DNA of 64,000 bases, taken from contig NZ_CP039865.1 in NCBI RefSeq assembly GCF_005160265.1, positions 3,434,828 through 3,498,827 of the forward strand, given 5' to 3'. A program made the translations under genes and the position numbers. Shown one piece after another: positions 21,899-34,336 of this stretch. Source of the DNA: Phreatobacter aquaticus. GTDB taxonomy: Bacteria; Pseudomonadota; Alphaproteobacteria; Rhizobiales; Phreatobacteraceae. The notes under the pieces are model-generated. The model was not told the origin of the DNA, did not search any database, and saw nothing but the letters and a program-made list of their open reading frames with translations. Position 1 is the stretch's first letter; every line of letters begins with the position of its first letter.

Positions 21899-21975
21899 GG
21901 TCCCGTAGCTCAGCTGGATAGAGCGACAGCCTTCTAAGCTGTTGGTCGCAGGTTCGAGCCCTGCCGGGATCGCCA
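21899..21975 (+). tRNA. tRNA-Arg(TCT), attachment site of the accessory island
   Basis: 77-nt cloverleaf including CCA. The acceptor GGTCCCG pairs with CGGGATC (one G-U), the anticodon stem is ACAGC/GCTGT, and loop CTTCTAA gives TCT. The T arm is GCAGG-TTCGAGC-CCTGC. Its 3' 47 bases (21929-21975) are repeated at 34104-34150 with two mismatches, marking it as the insertion site of the 12-kb island downstream. Confidence 0.95.
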
Positions 21976-22079
21976 GCATTTTCAATGACGGATGCTTGAT
22001 TGGCGGGAGCGTTGGGTCCCGCCAGACAACACCGAGTGAACACAAACCGTCTTGTGAATGTCGCTATCGCGGCCAGGCG

Positions 22080-22240
22080 GGCACTGTCAGAGGAAAATCG
22101 GGTTGCTGTCGTAGGGGCGGGCCGCTAGCCGGAGCGGATAAGCAATCCCGGCATTTTCGCTATTTCAAGACGTCGCCTGAGATCATCTGCCTGGCAGTGA
22201 TGATGTCTGTCCGCTACCCGCTACCCGCTGTCGCTGCGGT
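22080..22240 (+). pseudogene. IS6-family transposase remnant, 5' end
   Basis: Contains an end-like sequence (GTCAGAGGAAAATCGGG at 22086-22102) and then the transposase N terminus HFRYFKTSPEIICLAVMMSVRYPL (start of the IS6-family protein, about 25 residues). The frame is then lost, with a short duplication of CTACCCG and the edge of the LysR gene. The same sequence recurs near 33718-33850. Homology stops at about 22240, where the LysR coding sequence begins. Confidence 0.75.
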
Positions 22241-24156: not shown

Positions 24157-24429
24157 TCACCGGTCGGCTTCCTCCCGCAGCATCTCCAGTGTTGCCGGAT
24201 CGAACTTGGCCTTGACCCGTCGTCCATCGGCCGTGACGGCATGGACCTTGTAGCAGCCATCATCCGTCCGGATGCGTGTCACTTGCCAGCCGCGCACCCT
24301 CAGGCGCTCGACAAGCGCGTCGCGGGGCTGCCAGTCGGCCATGGGCGCTGTGCAGCGCGGGCTTGCCGCAGCCATGCCGCCCCAAAGGGCTGTTACGAGC
24401 AGAGCGCTGGCTCCCAGGGTCCGCTTCAT
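24157..24429 (-). CDS. Small periplasmic PepSY-domain protein
   Basis: 90-aa protein. A signal peptide (MKRTLGASALLVTALWGGMAAASP) is followed by a single PepSY-like unit: DALVERLRVRGWQVTRIRTDDGCYKVHAVTADGRRVKAKFDPATLEMLR. GAGGAG lies 5 bases before the ATG at 24429. Such mini-PepSY proteins are frequent partners of two-component systems and ferric-reductase-like clusters, and may modulate them in the periplasm. It is divergent from the response regulator gene, and the shared gap (24430-24578) holds the TCAG-N7-TCAG element. Confidence 0.82.
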   Translation of the reverse strand: MKRTLGASALLVTALWGGMAAASPRCTAPMADWQPRDALVERLRVRGWQVTRIRTDDGCYKVHAVTADGRRVKAKFDPATLEMLREEADR

Positions 24430-24514
24430 CGTGCACTCCTCGCCGGCATTGGTCATTGTGTGGTGATGGACCATATTGACCTGACGCCAGCCTGAACCGC
24501 CGGACGAACCTTAT

Positions 24515-24533
24515 TCAGCCGATCGTCAGCTTC
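24515..24533 (+). promoter_or_regulatory. TCAG-N7-TCAG direct-repeat site upstream of the regulator gene
   Basis: TCAGCCGATCGTCAGCTTC, with the two TCAG units 11 bases apart, as expected for an OmpR-family dimer site. It ends 45 bases before the response regulator ATG and lies about 86 bases upstream of the divergent PepSY gene. A 16/19-identical copy stands at 26663-26681 in the same position before the DUF2271 gene. Confidence 0.65.
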
Positions 24534-24578
24534 CGGGGCTAGCGTCGTGCCGGATGACCATGGACCGGGACCCTGCAC

Positions 24579-25265
24579 ATGCGCGTTCTGCTCGTTGAAG
24601 ACGATACGCTTCTCGGGGCGGCGGTGCGCGATCAGATCGCTGCAGACGGGCATAGCGTCGATTGGGCGACCAGACTGGATGCCGCGAGCGACCATCTCCG
24701 CGTCGCCACCTATCAACTCATCCTCCTGGACCTGATGCTGCCCGACGGTCAGGGGCTGGACTTTCTGCGCCGCAGGCGCCTCGCGGGGGACGACACCCCG
24801 GTCATCATCCTGACCGCCCGCGACCAGATCTCCGACCGGATCGCCGGCCTCAACGGCGGCGCCGACGACTATCTGGTCAAACCCTTCGACCTGTCGGAGC
24901 TGACGGCCAGACTGGGTGCGGTCGCAAGACGCTATGCGGGCAATCCCAATCCGATCGTCCGTCTCGGCGAATTGCAGGTCGACATGGCTGGCCGGTCCGT
25001 TCAACGCGCCGGCCGCCGCGTGGCGCTGACCGCGCGGGAGTGGGCCCTGTTCGAGGCCCTGCTGCAGCATCCGCACCAGCTTCTGTCCAAGGCGCAGTTG
25101 GAGGAGCGACTCTACTCGTTCGACACCGAGATCGAGAGCAACACGATCGAGGTCTATGTCGGACGGCTGCGCAAGAAGGTCGGCCACGCGATGATCGAGA
25201 CGGTGCGTGGCATGGGCTACCGGCTCGGACAGAGCGTCGCCACAGACAGTACCGGAGATCGTTGA
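24579..25265 (+). CDS. Two-component response regulator, OmpR/QseB type
   Basis: 228-aa regulator. The receiver domain has the acidic pair EDD (residues 7-9), phosphoacceptor D51 (LLDLMLPDG) and K101 (YLVKPFD). The C-terminal winged helix has LTAREWALFEALLQHPHQLLSKAQLEERLY and the wing NTIEVYVGRLRKKVG...TVRGMGYRL. It most resembles the QseB/PmrA/TctD subgroup. It is coupled to the sensor kinase by a TGATG overlap. A repeated TCAG-N7-TCAG element before this gene and before the DUF2271 gene is the likely binding site. Confidence 0.93.
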   Translation: MRVLLVEDDTLLGAAVRDQIAADGHSVDWATRLDAASDHLRVATYQLILLDLMLPDGQGLDFLRRRRLAGDDTPVIILTARDQISDRIAGLNGGADDYLVKPFDLSELTARLGAVARRYAGNPNPIVRLGELQVDMAGRSVQRAGRRVALTAREWALFEALLQHPHQLLSKAQLEERLYSFDTEIESNTIEVYVGRLRKKVGHAMIETVRGMGYRLGQSVATDSTGDR

Positions 25266-26632
25266 TGAGGCAGCTGTTCCCGCATCCGAGGCTCAGCCTG
25301 CAACGCAGGCTTGCCCTCGCGCTGGCGGGATGCGTGACGGCATGCTGGCTCGCCGGGACGGTCGCGGCCGGTTTCGTCCTGCGTGAAGAGATCAGCGAGG
25401 TCTTCGACAGCGCCTTGCAGGAGGTTGCGCAGGGGGTCCTTCCGCTCGCCTATGCGGAAATCCTTGAGCGCGGCACGGACGGCCCCCCGGACAGCGCGCC
25501 AAACCGCGTCGCCTCTGTCGGGCCACACCGGGAGTATATCGCCTACATCGTCCGCAACGCCGCGGGGCGTGTGCTGCTGATGTCTCACGACGCGGACCTT
25601 GCGATGTTCCCGAGCACCATCCAGCCGGGATTTGCCGACGGCCCCGTGACCCGGCTCTACACGGAGGCCGCCATTCGCGGCACACTGTTCGTGACCTCCG
25701 CGGAGCGTCCAGGGCATCGGCGCGCGACGGTCGTGCAGGCAACACGGATGCTGGTCTGGCCGCTGGGGGTGCTTCTTCCCCTGATCGCGGCCGTCATCTG
25801 GCTTCTTGTTGCCCGGTCGTTCCGGCCGATCGGGGCGTTTCAGCGCGCCATCGAAGCGCGCGGCGGTGGGAATTTGACGCCGGTCGATACCAGCGCTCTG
25901 TCCGTCGAGATCGCCCCGGCGGCGGAGGCCGTCAACCAGCTGATCGAGCGGCTCAAGCAGGCGCTTGAAGGAGAGCGCAGGTTCACCGCCAACAGCGCCC
26001 ACGAGCTGCGAACGCCTGTTGCTGCTGCACTTGCCCAGACACAAAGGCTTCTCGCTGAATTGCCGGACGGGCAGAGCCATGACCGCGCCACCGCTATCGA
26101 GGCGGCCTTGCGTCGGCTGACCAGGCTGTCTGAGAAGCTGTTGCAACTCGCAAAGGCCGAAAGCGGACGCCTGAAGGCCGACAGGCCACAAGATCTCGCG
26201 CAGGCGCTGTCCCTTGTTCTCGCCGATCTCCAGGGCACACCGGGTGTCGAGGACCGACTGATCGTCGAGGTCCCCGAGAGCGGAACGTTCCTGTCGTGGC
26301 TGGACATCGACGCCTTCGCCATCCTTGCCCGCAACCTCATCGAGAATGCTGTCAGACACGGAGACATGTCCAAGCCGGTCCATGTGTCGCTGACGGCCGG
26401 TGGCCTCTTGCGCGTCTCCAATTCCGGCCGGGTGGTTCCGGTCGATAGCCTTGCCCTCATGACCAAGGCGTTTCAGCGTGGAAATACCAACGCAGACGGT
26501 GCCGGGATCGGATTGGCGATTGTCGCGGCCATTGCCGAGGGTATCGGGACGCGGCTGGAGCTTCGATCGCCTGCCCCAGGCATGGTCGACGGATTCGAGG
26601 CCAGCGTCTTGTTGCCGAAGGCGCCATGCTGA
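25265..26632 (+). CDS. Two-component sensor histidine kinase, QseC type
   Basis: 455-aa inner-membrane kinase. TM1 is LALALAGCVTACWLAGTVAAGFVL (about 16-40), followed by a periplasmic domain of about 120 residues and TM2 MLVWPLGVLLPLIAAVIWLLVA (about 160-182). HAMP-like linker and HisKA follow, with H246 in SAHELRTPVAAALAQ, then the ATPase N box NLIENAVRHG and the G box GAGIGLAIV. The start ATG overlaps the regulator stop. The signal is unknown. Small PepSY proteins and QseC-type kinases are often associated with metal or redox stress, so one of these is a reasonable guess. Confidence 0.92.
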   Translation: MRQLFPHPRLSLQRRLALALAGCVTACWLAGTVAAGFVLREEISEVFDSALQEVAQGVLPLAYAEILERGTDGPPDSAPNRVASVGPHREYIAYIVRNAAGRVLLMSHDADLAMFPSTIQPGFADGPVTRLYTEAAIRGTLFVTSAERPGHRRATVVQATRMLVWPLGVLLPLIAAVIWLLVARSFRPIGAFQRAIEARGGGNLTPVDTSALSVEIAPAAEAVNQLIERLKQALEGERRFTANSAHELRTPVAAALAQTQRLLAELPDGQSHDRATAIEAALRRLTRLSEKLLQLAKAESGRLKADRPQDLAQALSLVLADLQGTPGVEDRLIVEVPESGTFLSWLDIDAFAILARNLIENAVRHGDMSKPVHVSLTAGGLLRVSNSGRVVPVDSLALMTKAFQRGNTNADGAGIGLAIVAAIAEGIGTRLELRSPAPGMVDGFEASVLLPKAPC

Positions 26633-26662
26633 ACGCCAGCTGACGGTCTTTGTCGCCCAACG

Positions 26663-26681
26663 TCAGGCCATCGTCAGTTTC
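26663..26681 (+). promoter_or_regulatory. TCAG-N7-TCAG direct-repeat site upstream of the DUF2271 gene
   Basis: TCAGGCCATCGTCAGTTTC, two TCAG units 11 bases apart, ending 43 bases before the DUF2271 ATG. It matches the element at 24515-24533 at 16 of 19 positions. A further inverted CTGACG lies at 26640-26645. It falls between the kinase stop and the DUF2271 gene, which suggests a second promoter under the island's own response regulator. Confidence 0.65.
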
Positions 26682-26724
26682 GCGGCGCACGACTCCGGAT
26701 GCCAGACAAACCCGGAGACCGTCC

Positions 26725-27201
26725 ATGACACACAAGATCCTCGGCCTCGGCCTTGCCGCCGCCATCGGCCTCGCCGGCATCGTCCTGCCCCAAGCGGCGG
26801 AAGCGCGTCCCGTGCGCCTGACCACTACCTTGAAGGCCTATGGCGGCAACGGCGCCTATCTCGCGATCTACCTCATCGACCCGCAGGGACGCTTTCATTC
26901 CACACTGCGGGTGGCCGGGGGCAAGGCCAAGTATCACAGGCATCTCACTGGCTGGTTCCGTGGCTCCAATGGTCGTATCGACGGGACCACGGGCGCCAGC
27001 GTCGGCAGTGGCCAGACCCTCAGGATCAGTGTCGACATCGCCGACGCCCTGATTGACGCCGGCTACCAGATCCAGATCGACAGTGCGGTCGAGAATGAGC
27101 GCGACGTGCCCGCCGACGTGACCGTTCCGCTCGCTGCCGGAAATGCCGGGCGGGCGATCGCCGGCCGCGGCTACGTCCAGTCCTTCGCCTTCGACATGTG
27201 A
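26725..27201 (+). CDS. DUF2271 secreted protein, predicted ApbE-flavinylated
   Basis: 158-aa protein. A signal peptide (MTHKILGLGLAAAIGLAGIVLPQAAEA) is followed by a beta-rich DUF2271 domain (LTTTLKAYGGNGAYLAIYLIDPQGRFHSTLRVAG; TLRISVDIADALIDAGYQIQID). Residues 86-92, DGTTGAS, match the ApbE target motif DxxS/TGAT/S, so Ser92 is the predicted FMN attachment residue. GGAG lies before the ATG at 26725. It is the likely periplasmic electron carrier of the system, fed by the PepSY-reductase encoded next (overlapping by 4 bases) and modified by ApbE two genes downstream. Confidence 0.87.
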   Translation: MTHKILGLGLAAAIGLAGIVLPQAAEARPVRLTTTLKAYGGNGAYLAIYLIDPQGRFHSTLRVAGGKAKYHRHLTGWFRGSNGRIDGTTGASVGSGQTLRISVDIADALIDAGYQIQIDSAVENERDVPADVTVPLAAGNAGRAIAGRGYVQSFAFDM

Positions 27202-29435
27202 CCAGCACGAGGGCACCCGTCATGCTGCGCACGCTTCACTCGGTCACCGGTCTCGCCGCTGCCATCCTGGTGGTGGTCCTGGCGCTTTCGGGAGCCATCC
27301 TGTCGGTCAATCCGGTATCTGAATGGATGGCGGCCCCAGCCGTCCGGTCCGGCCACACCGAGATTGCCGCACTGGCCGATGTGGTCGCGGCACGGCGGCC
27401 GGAGGTCGACAAGATCGTCCGGACAGCCTCGGGCACCCTCGTCGTTTCCTATTTTGACGGGACCAGCGCGGGGTCCGAAGTTGTCGATCCCGAAACGGGC
27501 GCGGCCCTCGGGCCGCATGCGCCGTCGGGCTTCACCCGCATGGTCACGAACCTGCATCGCTCGCTGCTGCTCGGCCAGACGGGCCGAGCGGTAGCAGGCC
27601 TTGGCGCGGCCGCCATGGTCATCCTGACCATGTCTGGCGCCTTGATGCTTATGGCGCGGCTCGGAGGCTGGCGGGCGATCCTGCGGCCGGTCCGTGGCAC
27701 GCCCATGCAGCGCTGGCACGCGGGGATCGGCAGGCTGACGATGGTCGCCCTGCTGCTGTCATCGCTCACCGGCACCTATATGGCGCTTGCGACCTTCGAA
27801 CTCGTTCCCGATGGCTCTGCGCAGGCCTCGAAGAGCAGCGAGGGTGTCGGCGGGCCACGCCTGCCTGTCGGAAAGGTCGCGGCACTTGCCGCCGTTGATC
27901 TCGCCGATCTGAGGGAGTTGGCCTTTCCCTATGCGGGCGATCCGACCGACACCTACACGCTGACCACGTCCCGCGGCGTCAGCCAGATCGACGCAGCGAC
28001 AGGCGAGGTTCTTACCTTCGAGGCTCATGCCGCCGGCAGCCGGTTCTACGAGTTCGTCTACATGCTTCACACTGGCCAGGGGCTCTGGCCGCTTGGCCTG
28101 CTGCTCGGTCTCTCTGCCACCGCCGTGCCGCTCTTCGCAGCCACCGGCGCGCTAATCTGGTGGCGCCGGTTCAAGGCGATGCCACGTTTCCCCGGCAATG
28201 CCAGCGCAGCCTCTGCGGAGACCATCATCCTCGTTGGCAGCGAAGGTGGCAGTACCTGGGGCTTCGCGGCTGCGCTGCACCAGTCCCTGACCGCAGCGGG
28301 GCAGCGGGTGCGCACGGTGCCGATGAATGCGATCGGCTCCCCTTATCCAAAGGCAGCGCGGATGCTGATCCTGCCTGCGACCTATGGCGAGGGAACCGCG
28401 CCTGCGTCGGCCTCGGCCTTCCTGGCGCGCCTTGATGGCCTCGACATGCGACTGCCTGTTGCCGTCCTTGGCTTTGGCGATCGTCAGTTCCCGCGGTTCT
28501 GCGGCTTCGCCGACACCGTCTCCGCTGCTCTGGACGCCCGGGGCTGGCCATCCCTTCTTTCCCTTTGCCGCATCGATCGCCAGTCGGCGCAGGAGTTTGC
28601 GCGCTGGGGCGAAGACCTCGGCGTTGCGCTTGGTCTGGACCTGAACCTCAAGGCAGTTGCCGCGAGGCCGAAGACCTTCTCGCTCGAACTCGTCCGCCGC
28701 GTCGACTACGGTGCAGAGGTGCAGGCACCCACCGCGATCCTGTCCTTCGCCATGCCGGCGGACAGCCGGCACGGCGCCTGGTGGCGCACCCTTTTTCCGG
28801 CTGGGCTGCCTCAGTTCGAGCCCGGCGACATCGTCGGCATCATTCCGCCTGGCAGCGACAGGCCGCGCTACTACTCCCTGGCGTCGGCGAACCGCGACGG
28901 CGTTCTGGAGATCTGTGTCCGCAAGCAGCCCGGCGGCCACTGCTCGACCTTCCTGCACGACCTCGACCTCGGCGGGCGGATCGAGAGCTTCATCAGGCCG
29001 AACCCGGCGTTTCGTCCTTCTGCGGGCAAGGCACCGTTGGTGCTCATTGGAGCAGGGGCCGGCATCGGCCCCCTGGTCGGCTTCACACGGCACAACGAAA
29101 CCGGGCGTCCCATCCACCTCTATTGGGGTGGACGCAACCCTGCCTCGGACTTCCTCTACCGGGAGGAGTTGACGGAATGTCTCGCCGATCAGCGGCTGAC
29201 GGCGCTCAGGACGGCCTTCTCCCGTGTTCCGGGTGGCGGTTACGTCCAGGGCAGGCTGGCCGAAGACGGTGCGGAACTGCTCGACATGATCCGGAAGGGC
29301 GCCCAGATCCTCGTCTGCGGCGGCCGCGACATGGCAGTCGGTGTCGAGCGGACGCTCGAGGCCATCCTGAAACCCGCGGGCCTCGATCTGGCCCGGCTCA
29401 AGGAAGAGGGTCGCTATGTTGCCGATGTCTATTGA
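27198..29435 (+). CDS. PepSY-membrane / flavodoxin / FAD-NAD(P) reductase fusion
   Basis: 745-aa inner-membrane flavoreductase. The N-terminal PepSY-TM part has helices near residues 9-30 (LHSVTGLAAAILVVVLALSGAIL), 130-155, 175-195 and 285-315, with a heme-like HSVTG/NLHRSLLLG/RWHAGIG/LHTGQGLWP histidine set. A flavodoxin domain follows (IILVGSEGGSTWGFAAALH, about 330-460), then a CysJ-like FAD domain (RPRYYSLASA) and an NAD(P) domain (LIGAGAGIGPLVGF; C-terminal VADVY). It probably moves electrons from cytoplasmic NAD(P)H across the membrane to a periplasmic flavoprotein. GTG at 27198 overlaps the previous stop (GTGA); ATG at 27222 is an alternative. Confidence 0.88.
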   Translation: MTSTRAPVMLRTLHSVTGLAAAILVVVLALSGAILSVNPVSEWMAAPAVRSGHTEIAALADVVAARRPEVDKIVRTASGTLVVSYFDGTSAGSEVVDPETGAALGPHAPSGFTRMVTNLHRSLLLGQTGRAVAGLGAAAMVILTMSGALMLMARLGGWRAILRPVRGTPMQRWHAGIGRLTMVALLLSSLTGTYMALATFELVPDGSAQASKSSEGVGGPRLPVGKVAALAAVDLADLRELAFPYAGDPTDTYTLTTSRGVSQIDAATGEVLTFEAHAAGSRFYEFVYMLHTGQGLWPLGLLLGLSATAVPLFAATGALIWWRRFKAMPRFPGNASAASAETIILVGSEGGSTWGFAAALHQSLTAAGQRVRTVPMNAIGSPYPKAARMLILPATYGEGTAPASASAFLARLDGLDMRLPVAVLGFGDRQFPRFCGFADTVSAALDARGWPSLLSLCRIDRQSAQEFARWGEDLGVALGLDLNLKAVAARPKTFSLELVRRVDYGAEVQAPTAILSFAMPADSRHGAWWRTLFPAGLPQFEPGDIVGIIPPGSDRPRYYSLASANRDGVLEICVRKQPGGHCSTFLHDLDLGGRIESFIRPNPAFRPSAGKAPLVLIGAGAGIGPLVGFTRHNETGRPIHLYWGGRNPASDFLYREELTECLADQRLTALRTAFSRVPGGGYVQGRLAEDGAELLDMIRKGAQILVCGGRDMAVGVERTLEAILKPAGLDLARLKEEGRYVADVY

Positions 29436-30372
29436 GAAGGCATGTCCCTCGGCAGGTCCTGCGCCTTCGCGCAGGACCTTGAGTGGCCCGACGATGGGGA
29501 CGCGTTTTTCCTGCGTCTACTTCGCGCGGCAGGATTTCGACGAGAGCCGGCTCGCTCGCGCCTTGTTGGAGGCGGTGGGCAATGTCGACCAGCAGATGTC
29601 GAGCTGGAAGGCCAGCTCCGATCTGAACAGGCTCAACGCGGCAGATATCGGTGCATGGGTGTCCGTCCCGGGTGAACTGGAGACGGTCCTGGCATCGGCA
29701 ATCGAGATAGGTCGGCAATCGCAAGGCCTCTTCGACATCGGAGTTGGCGATGCGCTGCGCGCCTGGGGGTTCGGCGCGGCCGCCACGGCACCGGACGGCG
29801 CCCTGATCGCCGCCTTGCCACCAGTCCGACTCGCCGCCCATGACGTCCTCGACGTGGACATGCTGCAACATCGCGTCCGGAAGCGGGCGGCGATCAGTCT
29901 CGACCTGTCCGGGATCGCCAAGGGCTTTGGCGTGGATGAGCTGGCCCGCGTCATGAACGCCTTCGGCATGAGGGACTGGCTGGTGGGAATCGACGGCGAG
30001 ATGCGCGCGCGCGGAGCAAAACCGGACGGTTCCCCCTGGGTCGTCGCCCACGAGCGCCCAACTCCCGGAGTGCGGGAGCCTATGGGTGTGCTCGAACTGA
30101 GCGACATCGCAGTCGCCACTTCCGGCAATTACCGGCACTTCCACGAGATCGACGGCCGAAGGGTGTCGCACACCATCGTGCCGGAATCGGGCTGCCCACT
30201 CGACAACGGGATCGCATCCGTGACGGTGCTCGCCACGACATGCATGGCGGCGGACGCCTGGGCAACCGCCCTCCTGGTGGCAGGCCTCGTGTCAGGACTT
30301 GAGCTGGCGCGAAAAGCGGGTGTGGAAGCGATCTTTGTTCAGCAGGATGGCACGATCCACGGCTTGGGCTGA
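29416..30372 (+). CDS. apbE: FAD:protein FMN transferase ApbE
   Basis: 318-aa flavin transferase that covalently attaches FMN from FAD to Ser/Thr of target proteins. Landmarks: SGPTMGTRFSC, VDQQMSSWKASSDLNRLN, LDLSGIAKGFGVDELA, VGIDGEMRARG, the SGNYRHFHEIDGRRVSHTIVPESGCPLDN block and VTVLATTCMAADAWATAL with the magnesium-site acidic residue. No signal peptide or lipobox is evident at the N terminus, unlike many secreted ApbE proteins, so its compartment is uncertain. It overlaps the reductase gene by 20 bases, or 11 if ATG 29425 is used. Its expected substrate is the DUF2271 protein two genes upstream. Confidence 0.93.
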   Translation: MLPMSIEKACPSAGPAPSRRTLSGPTMGTRFSCVYFARQDFDESRLARALLEAVGNVDQQMSSWKASSDLNRLNAADIGAWVSVPGELETVLASAIEIGRQSQGLFDIGVGDALRAWGFGAAATAPDGALIAALPPVRLAAHDVLDVDMLQHRVRKRAAISLDLSGIAKGFGVDELARVMNAFGMRDWLVGIDGEMRARGAKPDGSPWVVAHERPTPGVREPMGVLELSDIAVATSGNYRHFHEIDGRRVSHTIVPESGCPLDNGIASVTVLATTCMAADAWATALLVAGLVSGLELARKAGVEAIFVQQDGTIHGLG

Positions 30373-30640: not shown

Positions 30641-31807
30641 TCAATCCACCGACAGGCTTCGGAGGAAAGCGACGAGATCGGCGATTTCGCTCTCCGTCAG
30701 TCGCAGGGGCTGTAGAATACGCTCACCATCCGTGTGCAAACGCGTGAGATCGATCTCGGAGTAATGCCGGACGACATCGGTCAAGCTCGCCCTCGATCCA
30801 TTGTGCATGTAGGGCGCGGTGTGCGTCAGATTGCGAAGCGTCGGCACCTTGAACGCGCCGAAATTGGCATGAAGGTCGGCGACATGGCGGGTGGCCCAGG
30901 CATCCCGCCGCTCCGGGTCGTCGTTGAACAGACCGAGCTGGTTGTAGGGGCTCGACCTCAACAGCAGAATGCCTTGTTGCCGACCGGGGTCGACGCGGCC
31001 CGGCTCGATGAAGAATGGCACTCCGACATCTGCGAATTCGCCGTTGGTGAAGGCCGGGCCAACATGGCAGAAATTGCATTTCCCCTGCCCGACGAACAGT
31101 GCGGCACCGCGCTGTGCCTGCTGTGGATAGCGGGCAGCGGCAACGCGATCCCCACGAGCGAGCGCATCGCGAAACTCGTCGAAACGCGTTCGGCCGGAGA
31201 CGATCGTTTCCTGAAAGGCGGCGAGGGCCTTGGCAACATCGGCCAGAACCCTGTCCGCGCCGGACGGATCGATCGTGTATCCGAACACGCCCTGGTAGGC
31301 CCGAGACAGAACCGGGTCCGTGCCAATCACTCGCGCCAGATGGCTTGCATCTGCTCCCATTTCGCGCGGATCGAGGATGGGACCGATGCTATGGGCCCAG
31401 AGACTGTCGGAACGGCCATCCCAGCCGAACCAGCGCTGGCGACCGACATCGAAAAGCGGCAGCGCATTCCGGTCGACGGTGGCAAGGCCGCGGCTTTGCG
31501 GAAGACCGTCCGTCCAGCCCCGGTCAGGGCGGTGACACGTCGCGCAGGATACGGTTCCGGTGCGGGACAGACGCTTGTCAAAGAACAGAATGCGTCCGAA
31601 TTCGATCGCTTCTGGCTTGCCCGATGCACGATTGCTCGGATCGGGCGATTTCGGGACCGGCCAAGGTCCATGCCGCACCAGCTCGGCGATCTCGCTATCA
31701 GTCAGAACAAGCTCGTTGGTGCGCGCCTGTTCGCCTGTCAGCAAGGCTGCGACCACGAGGAAAGCTGTCAGCAGGCATCCTCTTCGAGCGATGGTTCGGC
31801 GCGTCAC
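30641..31807 (-). CDS. Di-heme cytochrome c peroxidase (MauG/CCP family)
   Basis: 388-aa periplasmic protein with two heme c sites, CATCH in TVSCATCHRPDRGW and CNFCH in GKCNFCHVGPAFTNG. An N-terminal signal segment (RRGCLLTAFLVVAALLTGEQA) and the family's closing FKVPTLRNLTHTAPYMHNGS are present. The family reduces hydrogen peroxide or, as in MauG, oxidises protein residues. The start GTG at 31807 overlaps the preceding gene's stop by 4 bases (GTGA), so translation is coupled. It is the last gene of the amidohydrolase/YtkA-like/peroxidase operon, oriented opposite to the flavinylation operon. Confidence 0.9.
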   Translation of the reverse strand: MTRRTIARRGCLLTAFLVVAALLTGEQARTNELVLTDSEIAELVRHGPWPVPKSPDPSNRASGKPEAIEFGRILFFDKRLSRTGTVSCATCHRPDRGWTDGLPQSRGLATVDRNALPLFDVGRQRWFGWDGRSDSLWAHSIGPILDPREMGADASHLARVIGTDPVLSRAYQGVFGYTIDPSGADRVLADVAKALAAFQETIVSGRTRFDEFRDALARGDRVAAARYPQQAQRGAALFVGQGKCNFCHVGPAFTNGEFADVGVPFFIEPGRVDPGRQQGILLLRSSPYNQLGLFNDDPERRDAWATRHVADLHANFGAFKVPTLRNLTHTAPYMHNGSRASLTDVVRHYSEIDLTRLHTDGERILQPLRLTESEIADLVAFLRSLSVD

Positions 31808-32214
31808 CGAATGTCCATGTCCAAGGTCAGGCGCTCCGGACGTGCGCCTGCAAACACCGTGACGACGATCTCCCATCGGCCGGGCATATGAAACAACATG
31901 CCCGTCGCCTGATAGCGGCCGTCTCCGACCGCGACAATCGTCGGCCTGTAGTTCATGCCGTGGCGATGGGCTGGCATTGTCGCATCAATGGCGATCCGCT
32001 CAATCCGGCTGCTTGCCCCACAAAGTGCGATCCCGACATCAAAAGGCATGCCGACGGTGATGTTCGCCGGGCTTGTCGCGATCGCTGCGCGCACGGACCC
32101 TTGCGGCGGCGCTTTCATCGGCTCTCCTGAGCCTTGAGGCAGGCAATCGCCGTGCGCCGATGTCGCTGCGAGGAGGATAACCGCAGCGATGATCTGCGGG
32201 CCGGAACAGGTCAT
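31804..32214 (-). CDS. Secreted YtkA/FixH-like domain protein
   Basis: 136-aa protein with a signal peptide (QIIAAVILLAATSAHG) and an immunoglobulin-like beta domain. VRAAIATSPANITVGMPFDVGIALC, ATMPAHRHGMNYRP and ATGMLFHMPGRWEIVVTVF follow the YtkA-like/FixH pattern. The conserved PAHRHGMNYRP and MLFHMPG carry histidines and methionines that could bind copper. Coupled by 4-base overlaps on both sides (ATGA with the amidohydrolase, GTGA with the peroxidase). Function is not known; copper delivery to periplasmic redox enzymes is a guess. Confidence 0.75.
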   Translation of the reverse strand: MTCSGPQIIAAVILLAATSAHGDCLPQGSGEPMKAPPQGSVRAAIATSPANITVGMPFDVGIALCGASSRIERIAIDATMPAHRHGMNYRPTIVAVGDGRYQATGMLFHMPGRWEIVVTVFAGARPERLTLDMDIR

Positions 32215-33050
32215 TGTTGTAGTCCGGGCCCTGGCGCGACTTTCAGAAGCATCGCCTCGGCGTTGCGGTAGGCGATGCGTTCGGCCAGATCCCGGGGCAG
32301 GCTCGATAGCCAGCGCCGGCTGAAATCTGCGTGTGGACCAATATAGTGCCAGCGCTCCGGCGTGAATGTATCGGTGCCTACCATGAATCGATCCGGGAAC
32401 TCCTCGAACACCGCCTTCCAGTCCGCTGCGACAACACCTCCGCTCGCATGATCATTGCGGAAAGCAAGGTCGGCCCAGAGGTTGGGATATTTGTGCAGCA
32501 TTTCGCGCACGCGTTCGGGGCGGTCGAAACCGGAATGGGCCCAAAGAACGATAGCTTCCGGATAGGACTTGAAGATGCGGTCGATCGCATCGGCGTCGGA
32601 ATGGGCACGCAGCATGAGCTTGTGATGGCGCGCCAGCGCGATCATGCGTTGGACGACCGGCTTGTCGATATCCGATCCGAATGCATGGAACTCGCCAAGT
32701 GCCCTGTATCTGTACCTGCTCAACCGGTCCTCGACATAGGCGATGATCGTCGGGTCATTGGTCCATCCGGCGGTGTCACTACGGCGGCGATAAGGGCGCA
32801 ACGAGGGAACGATCAGATCAGGTGCTTCGCGCCACAGCCGCTGCGTTCCCTCATCATCTGAACTCGAGACCAAGGCCTTGCGGACCCCCGCCTGCCGAAG
32901 GATGGCCACGGCAGCAGCTGGAGGGATCATTTCGACAGCGTCATGGCTGTAGTGCACATGGGCATCGAAGAGAGGCAGGCGTTCCTGTGCCGTTGCTGCA
33001 ACAGCCGAGACCGCCATCACGACGGTCAGCGAGACGGCCAGACATCGCAT
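32211..33050 (-). CDS. Secreted amidohydrolase-family (TIM-barrel) protein
   Basis: 279-aa protein. A signal peptide (MRCLAVSLTVVMAVSAVAATAQE) precedes a metal-dependent hydrolase barrel: FDAHVHYSH (HxH after strand 1), LMLRAHSDADAI, IVLWAHSGFD and VGTDTFTPE (strand-8 Asp). This layout matches amidohydrolase-2-like enzymes. The substrate is unknown. First gene of a leftward three-gene operon with a YtkA-like protein and a di-heme peroxidase. Periplasmic location of all three implies a shared envelope pathway. Confidence 0.83.
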   Translation of the reverse strand: MRCLAVSLTVVMAVSAVAATAQERLPLFDAHVHYSHDAVEMIPPAAAVAILRQAGVRKALVSSSDDEGTQRLWREAPDLIVPSLRPYRRRSDTAGWTNDPTIIAYVEDRLSRYRYRALGEFHAFGSDIDKPVVQRMIALARHHKLMLRAHSDADAIDRIFKSYPEAIVLWAHSGFDRPERVREMLHKYPNLWADLAFRNDHASGGVVAADWKAVFEEFPDRFMVGTDTFTPERWHYIGPHADFSRRWLSSLPRDLAERIAYRNAEAMLLKVAPGPGLQQ

Positions 33051-33717: not shown

Positions 33718-33982
33718 TGCCAAAGGAAAATCGGGTTGCCGGCATGGGGCCAAGACGGTTGGCTCGGCTCAAGCAGAACTCCCGCATTTTCGCTACCTCA
33801 AGACATCGCCTGAGATAATCCGCCTGGCAGTGATGATGTACGTCCGCTACCCGCTGTCGCTGCGCAACGTCGAGGACCTGCTTCACGAACGCGGTATCGC
33901 CATCACCCACGAGACAGTGCGGTTCTGGTGGAGCCGCTTCGGAGTGATCTTCGCCACAGAGATCCGCCGGAGCCGAGTTTAG
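33718..33982 (+). pseudogene. IS6-family transposase remnant, 5' part (right copy)
   Basis: The start resembles the left remnant (CAAAGGAAAATCGGGTTG) and continues into the transposase N terminus: HFRYLKTSPEIIRLAVMMYVRYPLSLRNVEDLLHERGIAITHETVRFWWSRFG, ending at a stop after RRSRV. About 70 of about 230 residues remain; the DDE catalytic core is absent. It marks the right flank of the island and pairs with the remnants at 22080 and 23887. Confidence 0.8.
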
Positions 33983-34336
33983 GCGATGCGGTCGTTCCGT
34001 CATCGGCGAAGCATTCTGACACCTCGGAATCGCCCAACGAATTCAATATCGCGCTCGAAATTGGATTTATCAGAGTGTTGTTGAAATCATTGGGCAACCT
34101 CAGGCCTTCTAAGCTGTTGGTCGCAGGTTCGAGCTCTGCCGGGATCGTCAGTTTCCGTTCCATGTCATGGTGGTCGGCGACGACCGCGCGGTGCCTGAGT
34201 TGGCTCCGAAGCTGCTTCCGAGGCTATCCGGGTTGCCACTGCGACCGCCCAATGCGCATTCCGAGTGTTGCTATTGGGGTACGCTAACGGAAGCTACTCC
34301 CTGCTATCGTACATGTCCTGACGTAATGAGGGTTCA
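33983..34336. other. Island right-end junction region
   Basis: 354 bases without a convincing gene between the IS6 remnant and the porin gene. It contains the partial tRNA-Arg copy (34104-34150), then sequence expected to be the original chromosome downstream of the tRNA, and the upstream region of the porin gene. Confidence 0.6.
34104..34150 (+). repeat. Partial tRNA-Arg direct repeat (right attachment site)
   Basis: 47 bases matching tRNA-Arg positions 21929-21975 (anticodon arm to CCA) with only two mismatches, including an uninterrupted run of 31 identical bases. The 5' half of the tRNA is absent, and the terminal CCA is changed to TCA. This is the expected attR/attL remnant of an element inserted in the tRNA-Arg gene. 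Confidence 0.88.

Follow-up and report, generated by a model that had tools for sequence, protein, structure and literature searches.

A predicted trans-envelope electron exporter with a leaderless ApbE and its own operator in Phreatobacter aquaticus

The genome of Phreatobacter aquaticus contains, at positions 24157 to 30372 of a 64,000-nucleotide stretch of contig NZ_CP039865.1 (hereafter the window), a module of six genes. Three of these encode a secreted DUF2271 protein, the flavin transferase ApbE and a PepSY_TM membrane protein fused to a reductase of the type that employs flavin adenine dinucleotide (FAD) and nicotinamide adenine dinucleotide phosphate (NADP; reduced form NADPH). We consider it probable, at about 0.62, that the module is a horizontally acquired, self-regulated exporter of electrons across the cell envelope, in which the DUF2271 protein receives its flavin mononucleotide (FMN) in the cytosol. 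Its genes and regulatory sites are the following, with positions in the window.

24157..24429, minus strand: mini-PepSY (PepSY_2), secreted, with two Cys; ATG at 24429; PF13670, E 1.2e-24
24481..24529, no strand assigned: operator copy 1, CTGA-N7-CTGA-N19-TCAG-N7-TCAG, between the mini-PepSY and regulator genes
24579..25265, plus strand: OmpR-type response regulator, PmrA/QseB-like; PF00072 (Response_reg) and PF00486 (Trans_reg_C)
25265..26632, plus strand: sensor histidine kinase, QseC-like; HisKA and HATPase_c; sensor part between two hydrophobic stretches
26629..26677, no strand assigned: operator copy 2, same 49-bp pattern, upstream of the DUF2271 gene
26725..27201, plus strand: DUF2271 secreted protein; PF10029, E 1.4e-27; leader and DGTTGAS at 86-92, Ser92
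27222..29435, plus strand: PepSY_TM, flavodoxin and FAD/NADP reductase fusion; PepSY_TM, Flavodoxin_1 and NAD_binding_1; four predicted transmembrane helices
29416..30372, plus strand: ApbE FAD:protein FMN transferase, export signal not visible; PF02424, E 3.6e-73, whole profile

In the proposed mechanism, NADPH would be oxidised by the cytosolic FAD/NADP reductase domain of the fusion, the electrons would then move to the FMN of the flavodoxin domain, and a FoxB-like PepSY_TM part, with two putative b-haem sites at two conserved His pairs, would take them to the periplasm. There the DUF2271 protein, with FMN on Ser92, would ferry them onward; the likeliest acceptor is a metal, Fe(III) or Cu(II). 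FMN would be put on the DUF2271 precursor in the cytosol by the leaderless ApbE, and Sec would export this precursor afterwards. The kinase, with mini-PepSY as a proposed periplasmic co-sensor of its signal, would control the regulator, which would bind both 49-bp operators and thereby raise or lower transcription of the DUF2271 operon as well as of the mini-PepSY and regulator genes.

All six genes carry significant Pfam domains (the scans near the module covered ten proteins of the window and then nine more frames). The preliminary description of this DNA had listed a regulator, a kinase, a DUF2271 protein, a PepSY-TM/flavodoxin/FNR fusion, ApbE and a divergent mini-PepSY gene, and this set is borne out; so is the claimed domain order of the fusion, in which a profile search returns PepSY_TM, Flavodoxin_1 and NAD_binding_1, and the NAD(P)H-to-periplasm route drawn from it agrees with both the profile and the fold evidence. 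HAMP in the kinase lies slightly below its Pfam cut-off (24.8 bits, cut-off 25) and FAD_binding_6 in the fusion is also below (18.5 bits, cut-off 21.1). The top NCBIfam match of the regulator is PmrA (209 bits, below the cut-off of 330) and its closest solved chain is BasR (E 6.4e-43); that of the kinase is QseC (127.5 bits, below the cut-off of 475). ApbE resembles the solved structure 5mgy (E 4.5e-55). Genome searches find a single DUF2271, a single ApbE and zero matches to FMN_bind. A second PepSY_TM gene of the genome (G000:C1:3949463-3950311, in L055) is distant from the sole DUF2271 and ApbE.

The DUF2271 protein has, by hydrophobicity, a leader of about residues 1-27 (A-E-A, then R28). 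The numbering of DGTTGAS as residues 86-92 is correct when counted from the ATG at 26725, and its TGAS at 89-92 places the [S/T]GA[S/T] pattern of ApbE targets in a protein with a leader. Ser92 is invariant in an alignment of the window's protein with 13 relatives, 14 sequences altogether. In the AlphaFold model, residues 87-91 lie between two strands, in a stretch where the predicted local distance difference test (pLDDT) is below 50, which speaks neither for nor against a motif hidden in the core. A published DUF2271 protein is an ApbE substrate flavinylated at [S/T]GA[S/T], and a Thr-to-Ala change abolishes this flavinylation (PMC8238504; here and below, cited papers are drawn on for their available portions). 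The ApbE-dependent DUF2271 flavoprotein of the preliminary description is supported in this respect; the place of flavinylation was left unaddressed there, and the genome's only ApbE has no leader.

The module is a recurrent one. DUF2271 is matched in 25 of the 199 genomes of the order and in 70 of the 398 of the phylum; with 17 named loci added by similarity to the fusion, 49 unique fused loci were obtained, window included (51 before two duplicates were removed). All six genes occur in 27 of them, the regulator and kinase together in 35, mini-PepSY in 34, and ApbE and DUF2271 in a common cluster in 45, with a gene order and orientation that differ between loci; some incomplete loci stand at contig edges (e.g. 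L045, L048, L064 and L071). The [S/T]GA[S/T] motif is kept in 48/48 fused loci having a DUF2271. The fusion of L134 (genome G556) is identical to that of L063 over its last 300 residues. Such a fusion is missing from the phylum survey's classical DUF2271 clusters, and classical DUF2271 proteins score about 25-38 bits, or nothing, against the profile of the module's DUF2271.

The absence of an export signal on ApbE extends across these loci. Each possible start up to 60 residues before the catalytic core was scored, a leader being a 12-residue hydrophobic stretch with a mean of at least 1.6. No ApbE leader appears in the 44 scored fused loci, window included (highest value 1.15), and a DUF2271 leader appears in all 47 scored (lowest value 1.67); ApbE was unscored in L054, where it is part of the fusion, and in four loci where it is missing or incomplete, and DUF2271 in L064 and the truncated L071. 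Clear ApbE leaders were detected in L089, L121, L122, L124 and L125 of the same survey, so the test can reveal leaders. Of 36 non-fused ApbEs, taken with provisional start sites, 8 reach 1.6, and many classical clusters may therefore also be leaderless. As a separate observation, many classical-cluster ApbEs of L073-L120 likewise show no clear export signal. In L054 (5694-8138, minus strand) a natural PepSY_TM-flavodoxin-ApbE fusion adjoins a DUF2271 gene and has no transmembrane stretch past the fourth; its ApbE, on the flavodoxin side, would therefore be cytosolic if the flavodoxin there meets NADPH-derived electrons. In a table for Brucella ovis, an ApbE with its domain at 18-296 adjoins a PepSY/flavodoxin/reductase cluster that is split and entered under sulfite reductase (PMC9045290), which fits a leaderless ApbE. 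These sequence features lead us to infer cytosolic attachment of FMN, ahead of export.

A leaderless ApbE might instead modify another cytosolic protein, the DUF2271 protein not being its substrate here. Named leaderless ApbEs do act on fumarate reductases inside the cell (review PMC12052999), and in the module it is DUF2271 that has a leader and ApbE that has none. We regard this as unlikely, given the clustering of ApbE with DUF2271 in 45 of the 49 fused loci, a genome without an FMN_bind match and the motif retained in every fused DUF2271; moreover, a DUF2271 protein and its ApbE, with the leaders removed from both, yielded flavinylated protein in Escherichia coli (PMC8238504). In the general picture ApbE carries an export signal, but the same 2021 study required one or more cluster members, not ApbE in particular, to have a signal peptide, and a leaderless ApbE therefore does not bar the module from the PepSY-like flavinylation class. 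Cytosolic flavinylation of DUF2271 stays the preferred reading of the module's ApbE.

The fusion would account for the remaining part of the predicted route. Its frame opens at GTG 27198, and relatives L060 and L063 open earlier too; by comparison with most relatives, the start may be ATG 27222 and not this GTG. Four predicted membrane helices are followed by a P450-reductase-like half (model pLDDT 76.5, predicted template modelling score 0.55). The cytosolic part matches nitric oxide synthase and P450 reductases, the top row having Z 29.4 and a root-mean-square deviation of 4.3 over 376 aligned residues. Among the 50 fold-search rows shown, most begin after residue 320 and a few near 160, and the membrane part therefore depends on its profile match to the solved PepSY protein 7abw (E 1.2e-8). 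H14, H120, H174 and H291 are invariant across 15 aligned fusions; in alignment A5 the first His is nearly invariant, L060 being cut there past that residue. The four conserved membrane His and the homology to 7abw, by alignment and profile, are those of a FoxB-type PepSY_TM protein, and the 7abw structure has two haem sites of two His each (PMC11334425). The module protein differs from 7abw in carrying a fused diflavin reductase and in lying within a DUF2271/ApbE operon.

The link between the module and its own regulator, proposed in the preliminary description, is backed by the conserved operator before the regulator and DUF2271 genes. Upstream regions of 220 bp gave 11-bp direct repeats, resolved by eye as CTGAC-N6-CTGAA. 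The half-site pair CTGA-N7-CTGA is present upstream of 32 of 40 regulator genes and 23 of 32 mini-PepSY genes, for an expectation from dinucleotide shuffles of 0.16-0.24 on average and 2 at most (mean 0.22 for the regulator), and in 0 of 411 coding windows; it precedes at least one of the regulator, mini-PepSY and DUF2271 genes in 36 of 47 loci. Because these sequences also served to define the motif, the half-site counts are biased upward. Inverted pairs are spaced by 48 bp in 37 of 40 close pairs, by 49 bp in two and by 40 bp in one. With up to two mismatches, the full pattern has two sites in the 4.97-Mb genome, both in the module, and the reversed control has none. The window's operators end 47 and 49 bases ahead of the start codons and may therefore overlap the core promoter. 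Upstream of DUF2271 the spacings of 9, 12, 15, 18 and 21 bp are also in excess, perhaps as codon repeats of the upstream tails, and were not used as evidence. Next to related cassettes in L171, L173 and L175, inverted half-site pairs are spaced by 36 or 45 bp, not 48.

The exact operator is present in 27 of the 35 fused loci with regulator and kinase, against 0 of 14 without them, and in 0 of 55 non-fused DUF2271 loci from the phylum survey (57 minus two module-locus duplicates). Across the phylum it occurs in 12 of 398 genomes (reversed control 0), nine of which hold the fused module with regulator and kinase; the remaining three belong to a single genus and have this mini-PepSY, regulator and kinase set by a cytochrome b561-like gene, with DUF2271 unmatched. 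Nine of the 11 phylum-survey genomes with fusion, regulator and kinase carry it (G353 and G409 do not), and it was not found in G248 and G251, which have the fusion and no two-component system, or in G442, which has the two-component system and DUF2271 and no fusion. That the regulator is a chance neighbour was considered and is disfavoured by the shared operator, its 48-bp spacing and the 27/35 versus 0/14 distribution.

The sensor cassette itself appears to be portable. A small secreted PepSY protein adjoins a kinase and a regulator here, as in DbfQRS-like modules, and its C26 and C59 are invariant across an alignment of 16 sequences that includes the window's. When the mini-PepSY alignment was searched across the class, it matched at least 32 of 289 genomes (at most 14 candidates were scored per genome, so places may be missed); 43 places were listed and 20 fetched, being the best 22 less two already in the set. 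Among these best 20, 14 have a b561-like gene, two the fused module and four neither. The b561 assignment was checked with Pfam in L164 (PF01292, 2.6e-26), and the others were found by a profile built from L164; in L178, one of the 14, the regulator profile finds no regulator. L167, one of the two module loci, equals L065 over the 5000 bases compared. At L133:5592-6887 the two-component system, mini-PepSY and DUF2271 stand with a ferric-reductase-like protein and no PepSY fusion. Since the cassette also adjoins cytochrome b561 in other genomes, it resembles a regulatory unit that can be moved from one trans-membrane electron conduit to another. Among the kinases, 2CSK_N passes its cut-off in L164 and L061 and falls short of it in L040, with no match at E 0.05 in those of L051 and the window; no RExxE motif (presumably an iron motif) was seen by eye in the sensor part of a 35-sequence kinase alignment.

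The core of DUF2271, PepSY and ApbE is not new, since DUF2271 flavinylation and its pairing with PepSY were published in 2021 by Meheust et al., with 3220 PepSY-like clusters and 1077 PepSY genes having an NAD-binding domain (PMC8238504). The module shares with those systems a PepSY_TM protein, an [S/T]GA[S/T] DUF2271 and ApbE in one cluster; the leaderless ApbE, two-component system, mini-PepSY and 49-bp operator are undescribed in the available portion of that study, and, unlike those systems, no DUF4198 is found among the proteins scanned beside the module. Small PepSY proteins are known beside kinases: in DbfQRS and BqsRS-type modules a small secreted one stands next to kinase and regulator, one directly regulates its kinase in Vibrio cholerae, and for PA2658 binding to BqsS is predicted (PMC12714742). 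BqsR binds TTAAG-N6-TTAAG (PMC4682146), with the 5-N6-5 spacing of the module operator; the half-sites here are CTGAC/CTGAA and not TTAAG, and the module's sites form inverted pairs 48 bp apart and are coupled to a membrane electron conduit. The Klebsiella cytosolic ApbE also has no signal peptide, but its substrate is a soluble fumarate reductase, whereas that predicted here is secreted (PMC12052999). The additions to the known class are therefore the recurrent six-gene set, the 49-bp operator and the leaderless ApbE; among the matches listed in the open-access literature, with most subscription papers outside that scope, no paper treats a two-component system with DUF2271/PepSY, the operator or a pre-export ApbE.

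The chances appear evenly balanced that two more general statements hold together, namely that FMN is attached to a periplasmic flavoprotein before Sec export, and that a portable cassette of mini-PepSY, two-component system and 49-bp operator regulates interchangeable conduits, PepSY-diflavin reductase or cytochrome b561. Exported proteins have been described as acquiring their FMN outside the cytosol, which raises the problem of FAD supply there; this problem would be sidestepped if the ApbE of a secreted substrate were cytosolic, which would also imply that Sec can carry a flavinylated chain. With the operator, the regulon of a redox-linked sensor cassette that moves between conduits would become computable, which would offer a route to its signal.

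Several observations weigh against the electron exporter as proposed. The 7abw match consists of three pieces, the best with E 0.0043, and from a single sequence it is 0.027. The DUF2271 protein has no significant match to any solved structure, the fold search giving mostly antibody-like chains and none at E 0.001 or better. The Asp of its motif varies among the 48 fused loci (D in 30, N in 8, S in 4, Q in 4 and A in 2). The leader test is a hydrophobicity window and not SignalP. The half-site pair occurs in only 14 of 46 DUF2271 upstream regions, and the exact operator is missing from 8 of the 35 fused loci with regulator and kinase. Fourteen of the 49 fused loci are without these two genes, some being cut by contig ends, so the system does not depend on the regulator. 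In the window itself, the scan of the module's neighbours found neither VIT1 nor a ferric reductase.

The nature of the acceptor bears on two further explanations. At 0.5-5.6 kb from the fusion, 8 unique fused loci have VIT1-like genes and 7 have ferric-reductase-like genes (Pfam-checked for one VIT1 and three of the seven ferric reductases); of the neighbour clusters, which also included antisense frames as well as widespread ABC, P-type ATPase and LysR genes, these two families alone were retained. They favour metals as the acceptor. The VIT1-like neighbours would also suit a ferric reductase of ordinary type, one of the Fur-regulated PepSY-like proteins that serve iron assimilation, beside which the two-component genes would stand by chance; in Shewanella and Caulobacter, PepSY-like clusters have been tied to Fur and the reduction of iron (PMC8238504, PMC12004947). 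The common operator before the regulator and DUF2271 genes, its absence from the non-fused DUF2271 loci and the low scores of classical DUF2271 proteins against the module profile make this improbable. A role in respiratory oxidase assembly as a copper reductase of the periplasm, after the model of Bordetella CrpH, a PepSY_TM protein and proposed copper reductase (PMC13038864), is very doubtful: a metal is hinted at by tails rich in Asp, Glu and His in 14 of 34 mini-PepSY proteins, but the window's own mini-PepSY has no such tail, and the scan of proteins adjoining the module found no oxidase or copper gene family. Automatic annotation might label the fusion a sulfite reductase flavoprotein; this reading is rejected as exceedingly improbable, for CysJ is the fusion's top NCBIfam match at 118 bits, far below the equivalog cut-off of 668, the membrane domain is of PepSY_TM type, and the sulfite reductase haemoprotein is absent among the proteins scanned. 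The electron exporter remains preferred to these readings.

Horizontal acquisition is suggested by the surroundings of the module, which lies between two boundaries.

21899..21976, plus strand: tRNA-Arg (transfer RNA for Arg, TCT), left island end; repeated part 21929-21976
34104..34151, plus strand: 48-bp copy of the tRNA-Arg 3' end, right island end; 96% identity

This repeat, together with a module-free site in two of nine same-genus loci, upholds the earlier placement on an island: in L201 and L207 a tRNA-Arg lies 1.2-1.3 kb from the right-flank gene with the module unmatched (the tRNA of L207 being inverted), and six of the nine show the right flank alone. DUF2271 is in none of six same-genus genomes. 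The preliminary description had also held the combination of the module with this regulator and its island location to be noteworthy; the regulator link stands, but the combination is not peculiar to the island, as the six genes recur in 27 of the 49 fused loci. At both island ends, 22148-22222 and 33781-33855 are related stretches in the same direction with 89% identity, transposase-like relics which we take to be of IS6 type; frames over them match no Pfam family, and no integrase or recombinase family is found in the Pfam-scanned island frames (the ten proteins and nine frames, short frames being outside the scan). Also in the island, on the minus strand at 30641-33050, a di-haem MauG-like cytochrome peroxidase, a YtkA-like protein and an amidohydrolase are consecutive, and a similar frame is found in none of L032-L072. 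At L199:9492-9537, in a same-genus genome, another copy of the tRNA-Arg 3' end, of 46 bp, lies about 3.9 kb from the same flank gene, so the tRNA may be a repeated target, which suggests another island.

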